Of a DNA stretch of 64,000 nucleotides, positions 50,911 to 59,789 are shown one piece after another (the first letter of the stretch is position 1; the number at the start of each line of letters is the position of its first letter). A program made the position numbers and the translations under genes. This DNA comes from Acidimicrobiales bacterium (GTDB lineage Bacteria; Actinomycetota; Acidimicrobiia; Acidimicrobiales; Palsa-688), in NCBI GenBank assembly GCA_036378675.1, contig DASUWA010000011.1, positions 1 to 64,000 on the forward strand. The letters run 5' to 3'. Under the pieces are notes generated by a model that worked only from the letters and a program-made list of their open reading frames with translations, searched no databases and was not told the DNA's origin.

Positions 50911-51978
50911 ATGACATTCCGAGTTATCCAGTGGGCGACCGGCGGCGTTGGTCAGGCCGCCATCCAGGGAGTCGTGCGGCATCCCGACCTGAACCTCGTG
51001 GGGTGCTGGGTGCACAGCCCGGCGAAGGCGGGCAGGGACGCTGGAGAGCTCGCCGGAATCGGCGCGATCGGCGTGCCCGCCACGAACGATGTCGACGCGA
51101 TCCTCGATATGGAAGCCGACTGCGTCGTCTACGCGCCGCTGGTGCCGGACGACGCAGAGGTTGCCAAGATCCTGCGATCCGGCAAGAACGTGGTCACTTC
51201 GGTTGGATGGGTCTACCCCGATCCGAGCCGCGTCGGTCAGTTGATTGAGGCTTGCGAGGCTGGTCGGGCGACTCTCCACGGCACCGGAATCCACCCCGGA
51301 GGGATAACGGAACGTTTCCCACTCATGGTCTCCGCTCTTTCGAACGCCGTCACGTTCGTGCGGGCCGAGGAGTTCTCAGACATCCGCACCTACAACGCCC
51401 CAGAGGTTGTCCGCCACATCATGGGCTTCGGCGGCACGCCAGCCGAGGCCCTGGACAGCCCCATGGCGGGTCTGCTTGGAGGCGGGTTCAAGCAGTCGGT
51501 GCGGATGGTTCTCAAGGAGATGGGATTCGCCGACGCGGATGAGGTAAGGACGGTCCAGGAGGTCGCGGTTGCGTCCGCCCCGATTGACTCTCCCATCGGG
51601 ACGATCGGACCCGGCCTGGTGGCGGCCCGCCGGTTCAGATGGGAAGGCGTCGTCCGCGGGCAAGTGGTAGTGGCCGCGGTGGTCAACTGGCTCATGGGCG
51701 AAAAAGACCTCGATCCGGCGTGGAACTTCGGTCCGGAAGGTGAACGGTTCGAAGTCGAGATCGTCGGCGACCCGCCGGCGCTGGTCACCTTCAAGGGCTG
51801 GCAGCCGGAAACGGTTGAGGAGGGGCTTCTGCGCAACCCGGGTGTGGTGGCGACGGCGATGCATTGTGTCAACGCGATCCCATACGTGTGCCGTGCCGAG
51901 CCGGGGATAAAGACCTACCTCGACCTTCCCTTGATCGCAGGGCGGGCCGCACCCGACCTGGCGCGCGCCGGCGCCTGA
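50911..51978 (+). CDS. Dihydrodipicolinate-reductase-like (DapB-fold) oxidoreductase
   Basis: The 355-residue protein has an N-terminal Rossmann fold (FRVIQWATGGVGQAAIQGVV, CVVYAPLVPDDAEVAKILRSGKNVVT) and a C-terminal domain beginning around GIHPGGITERFPL. This is the actinobacterial family often annotated as dihydrodipicolinate reductase or 2,4-diaminopentanoate dehydrogenase-like. True lysine biosynthesis is unlikely since the usual dapB partners are absent. ATG 50911 fits. Its 3' end overlaps that of the fused transporter gene by 64 bases in convergent orientation. Confidence 0.82.
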   Translation: MTFRVIQWATGGVGQAAIQGVVRHPDLNLVGCWVHSPAKAGRDAGELAGIGAIGVPATNDVDAILDMEADCVVYAPLVPDDAEVAKILRSGKNVVTSVGWVYPDPSRVGQLIEACEAGRATLHGTGIHPGGITERFPLMVSALSNAVTFVRAEEFSDIRTYNAPEVVRHIMGFGGTPAEALDSPMAGLLGGGFKQSVRMVLKEMGFADADEVRTVQEVAVASAPIDSPIGTIGPGLVAARRFRWEGVVRGQVVVAAVVNWLMGEKDLDPAWNFGPEGERFEVEIVGDPPALVTFKGWQPETVEEGLLRNPGVVATAMHCVNAIPYVCRAEPGIKTYLDLPLIAGRAAPDLARAGA

Positions 51979-54900
51979 CGGCGTCCCGAGCGGGCTACCG
52001 CGTCTGCGTCGGTCCCGAGATACGAAGCGATCACGTCGGGGTGCGAAAGAACCTCGTCTGGCGACCCTTCCGCGATGATGCGCCCGAGCTCCAGCGCGAT
52101 AAGCCGATCGCAGAGAGACGAGATCAACGTCATGTCGTGCTCGATAACAACGATCGAGCAACCGGTGTCGGACACAACCCGGCGCAACAATGGCGCCAGA
52201 GCCTCGGTCTCCGCCTGAGCCACACCTCCGGACGGCTCGTCAAGAAGCAGAACGTCGGGACGCTGCGCCATCACACAGGCAAGCTCGAGGATCCGACGCG
52301 TGCCGGTGGAAAGCAAGCCCGCCGGCCGGTCGCGGAAAGCCGTCAGCCCTAGCTCCTCGACCAGGTCGTCGACTCGCTCGGCGACCGCCGCCTCCGAGTC
52401 CGTTGACGCCGGCATTCTGAACGCCGCCGCGAAGGGGTCACGGTTGGCGACGTGCCGCTCGAGGGCGACCGCGATGGTTTCGGCGACTGTCAGGCTCGGA
52501 AACAAGCGGGCTTCCTGAAAGGACCTGCCGAGACCGGCCCATGCGCGTTCGTGAGGCGCCCAATCGGTGACATCCTCGCCGAATATCCGGACCCTCCCCT
52601 CGTCTGACGCGAGAAACCCGCACATGACGTCGAACAGGGTCGTCTTTCCGGCGCCGTTGTGGCCGATGAGCCCGACGACCTCTCCCCGCCGGATACTCAA
52701 GTCGACGTGGTCGACGGCAGTGATGCCACCGAACCGCTTCACCAGGTCGGCACACTCGAGAACCGAAACCGAAGTCGCCAGCTCCTCGACTTGCCCGCCG
52801 TTCGTAGTAACGGTGACCGGTCGTTGTTGATGGGCCGTCTCGCAACCGATGAACACCGCCCTCAGGAGGTCGGGCCGGTCGAGTAGATCCGCGGCCGGTC
52901 CGCTGAAACGAACCTGCCCTTTTTCCAAGAAGGTCGCGCGCTCCGCCAGAAGGAGCGCGACGTTCACCGATTGCTCGACGATCAAAACCGTGGTGCCCTG
53001 CCGGTGGATCTCCCGCACCGCGTCGAGCAGCGTCGACACAACCGTCGGCGCAAGCCCTAGTGACAATTCGTCGATGCAAAGCAGCCTTGGGCGCACCAGG
53101 AAAGCCATCGCGAGCGACAGCATCTGCTGCTCGCCCCCGGACAAGTTTCCGGCGGTCTGGGCCGAACGTTCGGAGAGAACGGGAAAAAGGTCGGTCACTC
53201 GCCGCCGAGCCTCCGTGGCGGCAGAACGATCGGCGCGCAGCGGCCAAGAAGCAACTCTGAGGTTCTCCGCGACGGTCAACGACGGGAACACGCCTCGCCC
53301 GCCCGGCATCATGGTGAGCCCCATCCGGGCTATCGCCTCGGTCGGGTGACCGGTCACGTCCGCAGTACCGAAGGCAACCCGCCCCTCGTTGGATGGGAGG
53401 AGACCGGTGACTGCACGGAGGAGGCTGGACTTTCCGGCTCCGTTGGTGCCGAGCAGGGCGACGATCTCACCCTCGCGGACGGTCAGGTCCACACCGAACA
53501 GCACCTGCATCTGGCCGTACGAAGCGCACACGTTGCGGCACTCCAGCAGCACGCGCGGATCCAGCAAATCGTCGTCGCTGGAGACCGCCAGTAGCTCCCG
53601 CGTCGCCTCGTCGGCATCCCCGCCGGTCTCGTCGACGGTGGCCCATGCGCTCGTGTCGAGCCCGCGACGGCGGGCCACCGCGACGACGAGCCGGTCGCGT
53701 GCTCGCTCGTAGAGTCCGGCGAGCCCGGAAGGCAGAACCATCAACACCACCAGCAGCCCGACTCCAGTCAAGAGCAGTTGTGCCTTGGGGAACTCGATGC
53801 CGATCCACTGGATCAGCGCGACGCCGGCGAGCGATCCACCGATCGACGACAGTCCTCCGATCACGACCATCGAGAAGACCGTGATGCTGTCAACCGGCTG
53901 GAAGGTTTGGTAGCCGACGCCGCCGAGTATCACGACGTAGAGGGCACCGGCCGCACCCGCGATCACTCCTGCAACCGTGAAGGCCATCAGTCGGGTTCGG
54001 GCTGTCGGGATGGCAGCAGCCTCGGCGGCGCGGATGTTGTCGCGGGTGGCGAGAATCACCCGTCCCGAACGCGCTGCACGGATGCCTCGCGCCAGAACGA
54101 TCGACAGTGCAAGGACGCCGAGGCACAACAGGTAGACGTCGCCCTCACCGTGTAGCGGAAACCGCTTCCAGAGCACCGGCCTGACCACCGACGACGGCAG
54201 TTGTTTGGCGAAGTTGGTCGGATTGAAGAAGAAATCGTTCGCTGCGACTGCGAACGCGAGAGTGGTCACCGCCAGGTAGAGCCCCCGGACGCGAAGTGCG
54301 GGGAGGCCGAGCACCACGGCAACGACAGCGGCGGCCACGCAGGCAGCGGCCATCGAGAGAAAGAAGTCAAGATCGAAGTGCATCATCAGATCGCCCGCCA
54401 CGACGGCGCCGACTCCGACGAGGGCGAACTGCCCGAGGCTTATGGTGCCGGTCCACCCCGATAACACCACGAGAGACAGCGCGGCCAGGGCGAAGACCAA
54501 CCCGATGCTGACCTGGTCGAGGCGACCGGGCGATACAAACGCCGGAAGCGTGAGCAGAACCGCCGCTAATGCCATGAGCGCTATGCCTTTTGCGGCCCTC
54601 ACTTCCGGAAGGGTCCGAAGGTAAGACGCTATGGGCCGAAGATCCCCGATCGCCGACCACGACGAGTCGTCGGATGTTTCCGCGCGGTTCTCGGAGCGAT
54701 GCTGAAGCAGCAGGGCTATGAGGATCACGCCGAGGAACAGGGGCGTCTCGACGGACTGCTTCGACACGTCGAGCCGGACGACCGATTCCATGACGCCAAG
54801 GACGACAGCTGCGACGAACGCGACAACGAGCGAATCCATTCTCGCGACCACAGCCGCAGCCAGGGGCGGCAGCAGGATCGCGGGTCCCGCAGCTGCGTCC

Positions 54901-55688
54901 AGAGGCACTCCCGCCCGGGGCGCTTGCAGAATCACCGCGAGCGCGGCCACCACCCCACCAAGCGTCCACACTCCGAGAAGCAGGCGCCTCGCGGGAATCG
55001 CGAGAAGTCGCGCCCGGTCCGGGTTGTCGGCGATCGCGCGCACCGCCCTGCCAGCGTCGGTGGCGAGCAGCCACCACGAGACGGCGACGACCACCAGCGG
55101 CACAACAGCCACGACGACGAGGTCGTTGCCGTTGAACAGGACCGGCTTGATCTCGGTGTGCACGGCCGACAGGCCCGTCTGGAAAGAGGCAATCAACGCC
55201 GGCCCGTGGAACCACCGAGGGACGTACAGCCCGATCCCGCCGAGCAGTTGCGCCAGCCCGATGCTCGCAACCGTCAACACCAGTCTCGGCGACTTCGAAA
55301 AGCGCCAGTTGATCAACGCGCCGACACCGAACCCGACCACCGCGCCGATCAGCAGCGAGAAGAGTACGACGACGGACCACGGCCAGCGGTGCGAGAGATA
55401 GATCGACGCACCGATTCCAGCCGGCAGCCCGCCCATCGCGCCGTAGGAGAAGTTGATCGCCCGGGTGACCTTGAAGGTCAGAACCAGGCCGAGGGCGAGG
55501 AGACCATTGAGGCTCCCGTACAGCACCCCGTATAGGACGGTGCCCAGGGGAACCTCGTGAGGAACGACCCGGGTCAGAATCAGCAGGCCGCCCACGCCCG
55601 CCGCTGCGAGGATCCGCCAGTCAGTTATGCGGTCAGCGAGCCGGTCGACGTTGCGGTCCTTTGTCAGCCGTGCGGTCATGCGGTTCAT
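51915..55688 (-). CDS. Fused four-domain branched-chain-amino-acid-type ABC transporter (LivH-LivM-LivF-LivG)
   Basis: One open frame of 1257 residues carries every membrane and ATPase part of a Liv-type importer in order: a LivH permease (about 25-335), a LivM permease (about 365-665), an ATPase resembling LivF (about 715-945; Walker A GTNGAGKS 747-754, signature LSGGE 849-853, Walker B LLCIDE 869-874) and an ATPase resembling LivG (about 975-1230; Walker A GHNGAGKT 1009-1016, signature LSTGT 1126-1130, Walker B VLLLDE 1146-1151). In most bacteria these are four genes. ATG 55688 overlaps the binding-protein stop in ATGA. The frame is open upstream to 57026, but that part is the antisense of the binding-protein gene. 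Confidence 0.93.
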   Translation of the reverse strand: MNRMTARLTKDRNVDRLADRITDWRILAAAGVGGLLILTRVVPHEVPLGTVLYGVLYGSLNGLLALGLVLTFKVTRAINFSYGAMGGLPAGIGASIYLSHRWPWSVVVLFSLLIGAVVGFGVGALINWRFSKSPRLVLTVASIGLAQLLGGIGLYVPRWFHGPALIASFQTGLSAVHTEIKPVLFNGNDLVVVAVVPLVVVAVSWWLLATDAGRAVRAIADNPDRARLLAIPARRLLLGVWTLGGVVAALAVILQAPRAGVPLDAAAGPAILLPPLAAAVVARMDSLVVAFVAAVVLGVMESVVRLDVSKQSVETPLFLGVILIALLLQHRSENRAETSDDSSWSAIGDLRPIASYLRTLPEVRAAKGIALMALAAVLLTLPAFVSPGRLDQVSIGLVFALAALSLVVLSGWTGTISLGQFALVGVGAVVAGDLMMHFDLDFFLSMAAACVAAAVVAVVLGLPALRVRGLYLAVTTLAFAVAANDFFFNPTNFAKQLPSSVVRPVLWKRFPLHGEGDVYLLCLGVLALSIVLARGIRAARSGRVILATRDNIRAAEAAAIPTARTRLMAFTVAGVIAGAAGALYVVILGGVGYQTFQPVDSITVFSMVVIGGLSSIGGSLAGVALIQWIGIEFPKAQLLLTGVGLLVVLMVLPSGLAGLYERARDRLVVAVARRRGLDTSAWATVDETGGDADEATRELLAVSSDDDLLDPRVLLECRNVCASYGQMQVLFGVDLTVREGEIVALLGTNGAGKSSLLRAVTGLLPSNEGRVAFGTADVTGHPTEAIARMGLTMMPGGRGVFPSLTVAENLRVASWPLRADRSAATEARRRVTDLFPVLSERSAQTAGNLSGGEQQMLSLAMAFLVRPRLLCIDELSLGLAPTVVSTLLDAVREIHRQGTTVLIVEQSVNVALLLAERATFLEKGQVRFSGPAADLLDRPDLLRAVFIGCETAHQQRPVTVTTNGGQVEELATSVSVLECADLVKRFGGITAVDHVDLSIRRGEVVGLIGHNGAGKTTLFDVMCGFLASDEGRVRIFGEDVTDWAPHERAWAGLGRSFQEARLFPSLTVAETIAVALERHVANRDPFAAAFRMPASTDSEAAVAERVDDLVEELGLTAFRDRPAGLLSTGTRRILELACVMAQRPDVLLLDEPSGGVAQAETEALAPLLRRVVSDTGCSIVVIEHDMTLISSLCDRLIALELGRIIAEGSPDEVLSHPDVIASYLGTDADAVARSGRRQAPARARSGAARPAIKGRSR

Positions 55689-57403
55689 TGGGGGCCGTTG
55701 GGGAACACCGGCGGCGGTCCGGTGGGAGTGGTGGCCGGCGTGTAGTAGGTCGAGCCGAGCACCCACGAACCCTGCTCCTGATCGAAGCTCGACATCGCCT
55801 TCGGGTTCCACCATTCGAACCGGTATGAATGCTGCGGCGTCCAGTACGCGGCGCCGTTGATGTTGAAGGTCCAGGGCCCGTATTCGCCGTTCCCGCCGCC
55901 GTAGTTCCACAGCCCCTTCTCGAAGTTGAGCGGCGTGAGGTTCGGACCGGCTTCTTGGATCCCCAGCGCGAGGATGTAGAGATCCTCGTACAGGATGTCC
56001 ACGATGTGTGCCGGGGGGTTGCCCGGGTCGACCGACTTCGCGGCGAAGTATCCGAGCGATCCACCGTAGGGGGGAACGTCGCCGTTGTTGGAGACCCCCA
56101 TGGCGTGGGACCAGACCGCCTGGTTGAAGAGCTGGGCGACCAGGTCGATGTCCGTGAACGCAGCGCCGATGTTCAGCCACTCGGGCTCGTAGTGTGCGTT
56201 TTCGAGGTCGCCCGTGAGATATACGAGGGTGATCGGATCGCAACCGCATCCGATGGTCGTGATGCCATCGTTGACGATCTGCTGCTCGAGGCTCGCAGCC
56301 TCCTGGGACAGCTGCGAAAGATCGAGCGTGTAGGTGAGATTGGCGGCTGCCGGATGTCCGGCAGCAGCCATAGCGTCGAGCACCCGGTGCGCGCACTGCT
56401 GGTAGGCGGGGTTGTCGGGGGCGATGATGGCCGACTTTCGCGGTTGCCCGTTGCGGACCCCGGTGCCTGCCCACGTGACGTTCTGCGTGGCCATGTCGCG
56501 AACCGAGATCGCAGCGCCCTCGTCGGAGAGGTCGGTGCAGCTCGGGAAAAAGCTCCATCCGTATGGAGCGTGCTGCTGAAACCACTCCTGCGACATGTAA
56601 GGAACTCCGATGTTGACGACGCGCTGGGCGGAGAGCGCTTCCGCGTACGGTTGCGACAGGGCGCTGATGTCGCCGAACGCATGCATGGTGTCTGCAACGT
56701 GGATCGCGTCCGACTGCGCCGCGGCTTGGCCGCCGCCTGTGATCTCCTGGCCGAGCTGGCCCTGCCCGTTGTACTGCTGCAGAACCATCTTGCGGCCGTA
56801 GAACTGGAAGTGCAGGTTGAAGTAGGCCACCAGATCCGACAGCGTCCTCTCGACCGACTGGGGTGAGTCGGCGAACCGGCTGGCGTTGTACTTCCCCGCG
56901 ATCTGCTGGATCGCTTGTTGCGCGCTCGACACGTTGTCCGCAGGTATCCGGTAACTGACGGTGATGGTGCTGGCAGTGACTCCCAGGCTGGTCGCTCCCC
57001 CGTTCCCTCCCGAGAACTGCACGCACGGCGGAGCGTAAGGATCACCTTGCACCTGCCGGCCGGCACACGCGGTCACAACCGGCGGGGCGTTCCCGCTTAC
57101 TCCAGCATGGGCGGTTATGGCTGACCCAGAGGTGCCGGAGCCGCCGGCGGTGCTGCCGCCAACGGTCGCTGCCCCCTGCGACGACCCTGACACCGGAAGC
57201 CCGGTTGCCGCTCCGGGACCCTGTCCGCTACCGGAACCGGCTCCGGCGCTGACGTTCTGCTCGGGCGCCACCGTGGGGACGAGCAACGCCATCAGAAGGA
57301 ATGCCGCTCCGATGACCAGGGCGGGTCCGTAGCCAAGAAGGAGCCTCCTGTCCGAAGGACGCAGGACGCGGGGCTGCCGATCGGTCGTGTCGCCGTCGGT
57401 CAT
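55685..57403 (-). CDS. Membrane-anchored periplasmic-binding protein (LivJ-like, Peripla_BP_6)
   Basis: The 572-residue protein has one N-terminal transmembrane anchor (about 23-45: LLLGYGPALVIGAAFLLMALLVP) and a Gly/Ser-rich linker. A long binding domain starts near ITVSYRIPADNVSSA and includes NIGVPYMSQEWF, TDLSDEGAAISVRDMA and ITTIGCGCDPITLVYLTG. The branched-chain amino-acid binding fold is recognised, but the extra N-terminal anchor and size (typical members have about 400 residues) are unusual. It overlaps the secreted-protein stop by ATGA at 57403-57400 and the transporter start by ATGA at 55688-55685, so it is the middle gene of a three-gene unit. Confidence 0.88.
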   Translation of the reverse strand: MTDGDTTDRQPRVLRPSDRRLLLGYGPALVIGAAFLLMALLVPTVAPEQNVSAGAGSGSGQGPGAATGLPVSGSSQGAATVGGSTAGGSGTSGSAITAHAGVSGNAPPVVTACAGRQVQGDPYAPPCVQFSGGNGGATSLGVTASTITVSYRIPADNVSSAQQAIQQIAGKYNASRFADSPQSVERTLSDLVAYFNLHFQFYGRKMVLQQYNGQGQLGQEITGGGQAAAQSDAIHVADTMHAFGDISALSQPYAEALSAQRVVNIGVPYMSQEWFQQHAPYGWSFFPSCTDLSDEGAAISVRDMATQNVTWAGTGVRNGQPRKSAIIAPDNPAYQQCAHRVLDAMAAAGHPAAANLTYTLDLSQLSQEAASLEQQIVNDGITTIGCGCDPITLVYLTGDLENAHYEPEWLNIGAAFTDIDLVAQLFNQAVWSHAMGVSNNGDVPPYGGSLGYFAAKSVDPGNPPAHIVDILYEDLYILALGIQEAGPNLTPLNFEKGLWNYGGGNGEYGPWTFNINGAAYWTPQHSYRFEWWNPKAMSSFDQEQGSWVLGSTYYTPATTPTGPPPVFPNGPQ

Positions 57404-58917
57404 GCCCGAAGCCTCCTGCGGCGCCGGCGAGGGCGCGGTTGGCGATGGCCGTAGACCGCGTCAGCTGCGAGCAACCCGCTTCCCAGGAGGACCACCGCGA
57501 CCGCAGCAACGGAAGCCAGGCCGCGCCAGCAGCCCGAGCCACCCCGGGGGCTGATGGTGACGCACTTGACCAAGCCGACCGTTCGGACGGATTGTTGAGA
57601 TCCCCCGCTGCGCGGAGCTGCTGCGGAGGACCCTGTCGCCGGCGTGGCGGCCTGGTAGCTCGGCAAGTTCGGCATGCTCGGCGGCGAAGGCCCCGAGCCG
57701 GGGGCGGTGAGGGGAAGGCCAGAGAACCCGGATGGTGGAAGAGGCGTCGCTGAGGGCGAACCGGCGAAGTCGAAGGGGTTCGTAAACGATGGCGCTGCCA
57801 ATGTGTCCGCGCTCGCCCCTCCGAAGAACAGGTCCACCGCGCCTGCCCCCTCGAGGCTGGACATGAGAAGCGTGAGACCCGTTTCTGGAACTGTCGAGAG
57901 CTGCCCGAGAAGATTCTTCAATTGCGAGCAGTCGGCGCCGTGGGTCACTTGCCCGTTCAAGGCGTTGATGACCTGAGTGAGGGGCCCGACTGCGGGGCTG
58001 GCGAGTTGGTTGTCGAGTGCCGACCCGCTGAAGTGGACCTGGAGTGGACTCATCGACACCGCTCCTGTTCCTGGATCGACCGACTCGGCCGGGAGCGAAA
58101 TCGTCACTCCCAGCATCGCGAGAAGTCCGTTCACCCCGGCCAGAGCGGTCCCGATCGGAACGGTTCCGGGGATGGTTATCGGGATCCCCCCAAGCCCTAC
58201 GACCGTGATCGACGAGTAGCCGAAGGTGGCCTTGTTGGTGGGTTCGGAATTGCCGCGCTGTTGCGAGGCGCTCCACTTCAGCCCGTCGATGACTACCTTG
58301 CCGCCCAGAAGGCCCACGTCCTCGGCTACGGACGCGCTCGCGTTTTGCGCCTGTCCGTCCACGTAGTGAACCTCCGACTGCGCAATACCTTCGACGTGCA
58401 CGACGCCGGGGACGTCCTGAGTCACCGGGTACGTGCGTGCTTCTGCCGACTCCGGCTTGACGGACACGCTTACATGCTCCGTGCCGGAGCCCGGCGGCGT
58501 CTTGACCCCCGGGAACAACTGAGCCTGAGTCGTGGCGCTGGACGGACCGTTCGCCGAGTCGGCGCTGAGCGGCTGCGGCTGCTGCTTCAGCGTGATGGCC
58601 TGGCCGCAGATAGGGCTCGACGCGACGGCGTAGCCGAGGCCGCCGAGATTGACCAGTGCTGAGGTGGCCTGCGTTTCTGACTGGTCGTACGCGGAGTAGG
58701 CCTGGCCGATCGTGCTGGTCAGGTACACGCCGCTCGAGGACGGCGAGGTGCCCACCACCGCGGAGTTGGCGGACGCCTCCCAGGCTTGGACGCTTCCTTC
58801 TGCCTGAGCGCCGGGAATGGCGACCTGAGACAGGACCAGTCCTGCGACACCGGCCAAAACGACGCCCACTGCCCTGCGCCGTCCCCCCATCGCGTTGGTG
58901 CCGATCTCCACGCTCAT
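57400..58917 (-). CDS. Secreted surface protein with C-terminal membrane anchor
   Basis: The 505-residue protein has an N-terminal signal peptide (RRRAVGVVLAGVAGLVL, cleaving near GAQAEG; the twin-arginine look could suggest Tat export). The middle is Ser/Thr/Gly rich with repeating strands (SVQAWEASANSAVVG, GGIPITIPGTVPIG) and a Pro-rich stretch. The C terminus is a hydrophobic helix followed by a very basic tail (LASVAAVAVVLLGSGLLAA, then arginine-rich), like a surface anchor that stops in the membrane. No LPXTG is seen. ATG 58917 follows GGGGGG. The frame extends to 59001 but is not convincing there. It heads the operon before the binding protein and fused transporter. Confidence 0.72.
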   Translation of the reverse strand: MSVEIGTNAMGGRRRAVGVVLAGVAGLVLSQVAIPGAQAEGSVQAWEASANSAVVGTSPSSSGVYLTSTIGQAYSAYDQSETQATSALVNLGGLGYAVASSPICGQAITLKQQPQPLSADSANGPSSATTQAQLFPGVKTPPGSGTEHVSVSVKPESAEARTYPVTQDVPGVVHVEGIAQSEVHYVDGQAQNASASVAEDVGLLGGKVVIDGLKWSASQQRGNSEPTNKATFGYSSITVVGLGGIPITIPGTVPIGTALAGVNGLLAMLGVTISLPAESVDPGTGAVSMSPLQVHFSGSALDNQLASPAVGPLTQVINALNGQVTHGADCSQLKNLLGQLSTVPETGLTLLMSSLEGAGAVDLFFGGASADTLAAPSFTNPFDFAGSPSATPLPPSGFSGLPLTAPGSGPSPPSMPNLPSYQAATPATGSSAAAPRSGGSQQSVRTVGLVKCVTISPRGGSGCWRGLASVAAVAVVLLGSGLLAADAVYGHRQPRPRRRRRRLRA

Positions 58918-59042
58918 CCCCCCAGCGGCCGAACCAGAACACCGCCGGGCCGGATCGACACCGACGGAATACAGGCTTCGGGAAAAGGTTAGCCGGGCCA
59001 AATCTGACCTATCCCGTCACACCGCCTCCATACCGTGGAACC

Positions 59043-59789
59043 ATGGGATACCGCGGAAAGCTGTCTGAGCAGGCAAGGGCGCGCGAACTGCGCACGCAGG
59101 CCTGGACGCTCGCGGACATCGCCTCCGAGCTAGGAGTCGCGAAGTCTTCGGTGTCCCTTTGGGTTCGGGATGTGGAGTTCACGCCGGAACCTCGACGCGC
59201 TGCTCGCCGGCGTGGGCCGAACATCCTCCAGCGGCGCAAGGCGGACGAGATCGAGCGGCTGAAGATCGAGGGGCTCCTGCGGCTCGGGAGCTTGAGTGAG
59301 CAGGCGTTTCTGGCTGCCGGGGCGGCGCTCTATGCCGGCGAGGGAGCCAAGAAGGATGGGAACGTCCTTTTCGCCAACAGCGATCCACGAATCGTTGCCT
59401 TCCACTGTGAATGGCTGCGGTGTTTCTTTGCCGTCGATGAGCGGCGCCTAACAGCCCGTGTCTACCTTCACGAAGGTCTCGACCTAGCCGCCGCTCAAGT
59501 GTTCTGGTCGAACATAACCGGAATACCTTTGGCGCAGTTCCGGAAGCCATACCGAGCCCGTGCCGACGCAACAATCCGTCGCAACAAGCACGAACACGGT
59601 TGTGTCTATGTCCGTTATTGCAGCAGCGAGATGCATCGGGCGATAATGGGGCTGATCGACGCTCTGCTATCGTCGAATGGACATTCCGGGGTAGCTCAAT
59701 CGGCAGAGCGACGGCCTGTTAAGCCGCTGGTTGTGGGTCCGAGTCCCACCCCCGGAGCACCGGTGGACCAGCGACTATTCGTCGTGTAA
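59043..59789 (+). CDS. HTH protein with LAGLIDADG-like core; frame runs through tRNA-Asn
   Basis: The 248-residue frame has a helix-turn-helix ([20 protein letters not shown]) and a core ([57 protein letters not shown]) that distantly resembles LAGLIDADG homing-endonuclease folds. After about residue 212 the frame continues into the tRNA-Asn gene and reads [20 protein letters not shown], the usual translated tRNA signature. It ends only at 59789, inside the 3' end of rpoD. Its natural end was probably lost at the tRNA. ATG 59043 is the start, and the frame to 58656 is a shadow of the secreted-protein gene. I am unsure of the exact function. Confidence 0.62.
59685..59757 (+). tRNA. tRNA-Asn (GTT)
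   Basis: The acceptor strand TCCGGGG pairs with CCCCGGA (59750-59756). The D arm GCTC/GAGC, anticodon loop CTGTTAA (anticodon GTT at positions 34-36) and T arm GTGGG/TCCGAGT/CCCAC are all present. CCA is not encoded. The gene lies within the 3' part of the overlapping HTH protein frame and upstream of the convergent rpoD gene. Confidence 0.95.

Follow-up and report, generated by a model that had tools for sequence, protein, structure and literature searches.

The window, that is, the whole 64,000-nucleotide stretch of DNA that was analysed, contains a three-gene operon that we lean towards reading as a Liv-type importer with a tethered binding protein and an anchored surface protein (SURF) that probably captures or relays substrate. 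The fused core of this importer belongs to the Liv kind; what appears to be new is a complete core in one chain and a family-wide link of anchored, beta-rich surface proteins with Liv-type importers. A search of the open-access literature, with subscription papers outside its range, found no report of a one-chain Liv core and none that links a SURF-type protein to a Liv importer.

Operon layout and surroundings

Three minus-strand frames span the operon from 58917 to 51915: SURF (57403-58917, 505 aa), the binding protein (55688-57403, 572 aa) and the fused core (51918-55688, 1257 aa, with its stop at 51915). The start of SURF is uncertain and could be the ATG at 58917 or a second ATG, at residue 10. 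Because the genes of the operon overlap, their arrangement points to coupled translation. Most of the anatomy had been described in an earlier note on this DNA and is recovered here (Table 1): four Liv core domains (types LivH, LivM, LivF and LivG) in one 1257-residue frame, intact Walker A and B motifs in both ATPases, two ATGA overlaps, a binding protein with a membrane anchor of its own, and a surface protein with a signal peptide, a C-terminal helix and a basic tail.

The operon ends convergently: the fused gene shares its last 64 bases (51915-51978) with the end of a plus-strand frame that stops at 51978 and resembles a dihydrodipicolinate-reductase-like protein. Directly upstream lies a divergent frame (59039-59680, plus strand) with a helix-turn-helix-like start, adjoined by a tRNA-Asn (59685-59758) and, after it, a gene that we take, by its sequence, to encode a primary sigma factor.

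Table 1. Positions of the operon features in the window and of related surface proteins elsewhere in the source genome (contigs C10, C46 and C54)
Feature	Position	Strand	Basis
Four-domain importer core, order LivH-LivM-LivF-LivG, 1257 aa	51915..55688	-	ORF, Pfam, conserved fusion
LivH-type permease domain, about residues 46-340	54669..55553	-	BPD_transp_2 stretch, hydropathy
LivM-type permease domain, about residues 363-690	53619..54602	-	BPD_transp_2, best stretch 396-629
LivF-type ATPase domain, about residues 712-955	52824..53555	-	Pfam/NCBIfam, motifs
LivG-type ATPase domain, about residues 972-1245	51954..52775	-	Pfam/NCBIfam, motifs
Stop/start overlap (ATGA) between the binding-protein gene and the fused core	55685..55688	-	Coding-strand reading
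Binding protein, 572 aa: N-terminal membrane anchor, Gly/Ser linker, predicted type-1 periplasmic-binding-protein domain	55685..57403	-	
Hydrophobic N-terminal anchor (residues 28-46) of the binding protein, lacking a lipobox cysteine	57266..57322	-	Hydropathy
Stop/start overlap (ATGA) between the SURF and binding-protein genes	57400..57403	-	Coding-strand reading
SURF, 505 aa: signal peptide, beta-rich ectodomain, Pro/Ser-rich linker, C-terminal membrane helix, basic tail	57400..58917	-	
Beta-rich SURF ectodomain, residues 44-297 (confident model part)	58027..58788	-	Predicted model
SURF C-terminal membrane helix (467-485) and basic tail (486-505)	57403..57519	-	Model, hydropathy
Anchored surface protein, choice-of-anchor-P-like, immediately after LivF (L280)	C46:29283-30620		
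Anchored surface protein, choice-of-anchor-P-like, immediately after LivF (L281)	C54:139488-140897		
Anchored surface protein, choice-of-anchor-P-like, immediately after LivF (L338)	C10:58676-60064		

Four domains in one chain

Pfam divides the fused frame into two BPD_transp_2 stretches (E 9.8e-50), as found in Liv/HAAT permeases, two ABC_tran stretches and a BCA_ABC_TP_C tail; hydropathy places about 17 hydrophobic segments N-terminal of residue 690. The LivF-type domain combines Walker A GTNGAGKSS, signature LSGGEQQ and Walker B LLCIDE with a Gln at the H-loop position (VEQS), and the LivG-type domain combines GHNGAGKTT, LSTGTRR and VLLLDE with an H-loop His (IEHDM). Across 59 aligned related systems all three kinds of motif are kept, as in ATPases of the Liv/HAAT type. 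GTNGAGKS and LSGGE persist in the LivF-type half, where Gln takes the place of the H-loop His in 58 of the 59; the LivG-type half retains this His in 57 and has a non-consensus signature, LSTG(T/S)RR. Together, the LivF-type Gln and the LivG-type signature make the ATPase pair (51954-53555) asymmetric and predict that one ATP site is consensus and the other degenerate. The urea-transporter models UrtD (309.0, cut-off 304.1) and UrtE (308.8, cut-off 285.8) give scores narrowly above their cut-offs that are inflated, each being summed over both ATPases; an assignment to urea was dropped because the whole-protein score spans two ATPase stretches.

Could the four-domain frame be an artefact of assembly? 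The genome, from a soil-type actinobacterium, is a draft in 75 contigs, which leaves some room for the idea; but the two nearest relatives (L065 and L071/G012), MAGs from separate records at 73-75% identity, have the same unbroken frame and already refute it. Among 395 genomes surveyed in the class, at least 19 have the same fusion (near-full-query matches in one frame, domain mapping), a lower bound because the fused cases L261 and L263 surfaced only via SURF. We regard the probability of an artefact as vanishingly small. The earlier note had raised both the chance that the fusion is confined to one assembly, which these genomes dispel, and its conservation elsewhere with the same partners, which the genome search bears out: relatives were found, with the tethered binding protein and SURF kept.

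A second full fusion lies in the same genome (C56:3208-6861). Outside the class, one genome (G458) among 396 of the phylum has a full fusion (L258) and SURF (L259), which belong to separate systems; a search of plasmids returned neither a four-domain match nor a SURF match.

The other related systems consist of two half-fusions (LivH-LivM plus LivF-LivG) or of LivF plus a LivH-LivM-LivG fusion. In a tree of 59 systems the starred branches require six or more switches between the one-gene form and the two half-fusions, a count that does not tell gain of the fusion from its loss; since so many changes of state are needed, the fusion is evidently labile and has switched repeatedly. It was therefore rejected as the defining trait of the operon, because the same operon often has two half-fusions and many four-domain fusions come without SURF, and the tree also rules out that fusion and SURF go together: about half of its four-domain fusions lack SURF. 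By these comparisons SURF is the more stable novelty. The earlier note had also proposed a fixed stoichiometry, which would apply to the four core domains and, where these are fused in two relatives, to SURF and the binding protein, and no further. A separate LivF adjoining a LivH-LivM-LivG fusion is another conserved arrangement in the order (L026, L017, L019, L020, L336, L337).

The tethered binding protein

Hydropathy reveals a single hydrophobic segment in the binding protein, the N-terminal anchor; relatives with a complete start in general have such a segment and a Gly/Ser-rich linker. Pfam gives no match for the window protein, and Peripla_BP_6 matches 10 of 30 relatives. An AlphaFold model (pLDDT 82) resembles leucine-type binding proteins, both in Foldseek (E 7.8e-14) and in a VIA-align superposition on leucine-binding protein 4n0q (Z 24.1, 331 residues, rmsd 4.2), so that a type-1 periplasmic-binding-protein fold, as in Liv/HAAT systems, is predicted. 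C113 and C127 are invariant. Proteins matched through this fold also bind aromatic acids, urea and others.

SURF and its probable partnership with the binding protein

SURF has hydrophobic segments at residues 16-34 and 467-485, the latter followed by DAVYGHRQPRPRRRRRRLRA, and a weaker one at 253-271, which in the predicted model is an amphipathic helix belonging to the ectodomain. The model is of moderate quality (mean pLDDT 63), and fold searches with it gave no convincing match (best Foldseek hit E 5e-4, probability 0.30, TM about 0.1; VIA Z 6.5) and no direct sign of ligand binding; a likeness to outer-membrane beta barrels was set aside as low-probability matches that reflect a generic beta-meander resemblance. 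Sequence searches of Pfam, NCBIfam and PDB assign the window protein to no family. The C-terminal hydrophobic helix is present in all 35 unfused copies of SURF and a net-basic tail in 32 of them; the ectodomain is poorly conserved (mean column identity 34% in alignment A1), with G206, W215, F232, P250, G270, P276, G366 and G367 invariant.

A profile search finds SURF in 15 of 395 genomes of the class. At every one of 37 loci the order is SURF, binding protein, permease/ATPase, with the binding-protein gene directly 3' of SURF and, at two loci, in one frame with it; the two genes typically overlap by 4 bases (ATGA/GTGA) or stand a few bases apart, some distances being uncertain through the choice of start. 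With the fusion in many independent assemblies and a binding-protein gene next to SURF at 37 of 37 loci, the arrangement exceeds what chance would be expected to produce. The SURF-bearing systems form essentially one starred clade (34 of the 59 systems in the tree). L067 and L074, one lineage inside this clade, are truly without SURF, and L068 and L161 lack it merely because their contigs end. In L074, a fused system, a small secreted protein (L074:7640-8260) instead stands just upstream of the binding-protein gene; it looks unrelated to SURF and has no Pfam match. Because L067, L074 and about half of the fusions in the tree do without SURF, it is apparently not required for transport as such.

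The single-frame fusions of SURF and binding protein come from two MAGs of one genus (L275:1969-5541, 1190 aa; L276:1607-4099). Their order is ectodomain, helix, a loop beginning RRRTVG, helix, Gly-rich linker and binding domain; the joint, a transmembrane helix, a short cytoplasmic loop and another transmembrane helix, is thus a membrane hairpin. Since both proteins are joined through this hairpin, which fits the expected topology, the fusions argue for a physical partnership of SURF and the binding protein.

A wider family beside Liv-type importers

NCBIfam NF040603 (choice-of-anchor P) does not match the window SURF and matches 3 of the 15 SURF members weakly, the best scoring 23.2 against a 27-bit cut-off. 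L272 and L273, distant relatives reached with the SURF profile, lie in Liv operons and score 30-31 bits, above this cut-off; both NF040603 matches of the source genome stand directly after LivF. In a survey of 198 phylum genomes, strong NF040603 matches were found away from Liv genes and weak ones mostly beside them. That all choice-of-anchor P proteins are Liv-associated is thereby ruled out, and because the strong members do not adjoin Liv genes, the Liv-associated choice-of-anchor-P-like set is best placed on a separate branch from them.

An alignment of 12 weak NF040603 matches that adjoin Liv genes gave a profile, A5, with which SURF is homologous by hhalign (98.2%, E 4.9e-14); 12 shuffled controls and one reversed control gave nothing. 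Searched against the source genome, A5 has three matches, all right after LivF, including one on C10 that NF040603 missed. The held-out set holds 21 places, 14 of them with E below 1e-14; all 11 of these with readable neighbours are beside Liv genes, on the same strand and within about 0.8 kb, bearing in mind that A5 was built from Liv-adjacent members and that most held-out matches share its genomes or families and are not lineage-independent. The remaining three strong matches sit at contig ends, and the seven weaker ones are mixed (two Liv-adjacent). By rough arithmetic, about 16 Liv-type systems in a 4.1-Mb genome leave about 2-4% of the genome that close to one, and for this reason chance does not plausibly explain the adjacency. 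SURF is thus, by profile comparison, part of a wider family that accompanies Liv-type importers across several bacterial families.

Proposed mechanism and alternatives

How might the parts work together? SURF and the binding protein would be neighbours on the outer side of the membrane, their short tails lying inside; SURF would capture or concentrate the substrate in the wall zone and hand it to the tethered binding protein, which would dock on the LivHM pair. ATP hydrolysis would drive import, chiefly at the consensus site, to which LivG contributes its Walker motifs and LivF its signature. Fusion of the core would fix a 1:1:1:1 ratio, as an optional evolutionary step atop the LivH-LivM and LivF-LivG half-fusions. 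More broadly, and tentatively, since we hold it a little less probable than not, SURF and its choice-of-anchor-P-like relatives would be a hitherto unrecognised, dedicated fifth component of many Actinomycetota Liv-type importers, namely membrane-anchored, substrate-capturing surface receptors that hand their load on to a tethered binding protein; their genes would lie either ahead of the binding-protein gene or behind LivF, with the two proteins fused in some cases. Neighbouring genes were rejected as a guide to the substrate, their pointers being weak and mixed: relatives frequently have AMP-binding, P450, enoyl-CoA hydratase, acyl-CoA dehydrogenase or flavin monooxygenase genes close by, and others, the window included, are near housekeeping genes.

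SURF could also be a structural partner, a spacer or docking scaffold that keeps the tethered binding protein in position within the cell wall or stabilises it there. Its Pro/Ser-rich stalk and C-terminal anchor would suit such a role, as would the hairpin fusions in L275 and L276 and the weak conservation of the ectodomain; yet a binding protein with its own anchor and a long linker should need no scaffold, and the invariant residues in the core of the beta domain suggest more than a stalk, which makes this alternative unlikely, if still a serious one. That the pair is a sensor, gating or reporting on the importer rather than feeding it, would be in keeping with the AmiC receptor, which has the same fold as the binding protein, and with TetR regulators or cyclase-domain proteins among some neighbours. 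We consider this improbable, given that neither protein has a signalling domain, that their inside tails are short and that no regulator gene is conserved across loci.

Might SURF be an unrelated wall protein whose gene just happens to lie in this operon? Sister-clade transporters that do without it would allow this; the gene order kept at all 37 loci, the two fusions with the binding protein and the distant relatives that occupy another position, after LivF, in other Liv operons speak against it and make it highly improbable. A SURF that captures or relays substrate is the reading towards which we lean. Liv-type importers are numerous in this group, and the SURF family offers a testable surface partner for the passage of substrate across the wall zone; the link would also give a functional label to proteins annotated as 'hypothetical' or 'choice-of-anchor', and the one-chain core lends itself to structural studies of the asymmetric Liv ATPase pair.

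Comparison with known systems

Liv systems usually comprise four separate core genes and a free or lipid-linked binding protein; Liv/HAAT-type ABC importers (LivJK-HMGF) form family TC 3.A.1.4. The window system resembles them in its two BPD_transp_2 permeases, its LivF/LivG-type ATPases with BCA_ABC_TP_C and its binding protein of predicted type-1 fold; it differs in that the core is one H-M-F-G chain, the binding protein is held by a membrane anchor and the operon encodes an extra surface protein.

Precedents for a surface protein that serves an ABC importer come from other classes. In Corynebacterium diphtheriae, HtaA starts a chain that passes haem to HmuT and then to HmuUV (PMC8977872). 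HtaA/HtaB with HmuTUV share with the window the encoding of an anchored surface protein together with an ABC importer; the importer class is different here, the substrate is not haem as far as known, and Pfam finds no HtaA (CR) domain in the window SURF or in 15 SURF members. Wall proteins of znu clusters in actinobacteria bind zinc, and these and 'anchored repeat-type' systems likewise place secreted proteins with a C-terminal helix and a charged tail beside an ABC importer (PMC12445094, PMC6711530); unlike the operon described here, they have zinc-type transporters, zinc-binding motifs and, in some, sortase signals. The HtaA and znu precedents are best taken as analogies of mechanism, not of descent. 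Finally, in OpuA- and GlnPQ-type importers the binding domain is described as fused to the permease (PMC11065425, PMC8025302); these importers share with the window a membrane-tethered binding domain and domain fusion within the importer, whereas here the fusion joins the four core domains and leaves the binding protein as a chain of its own, except in two relatives that have it fused to SURF.
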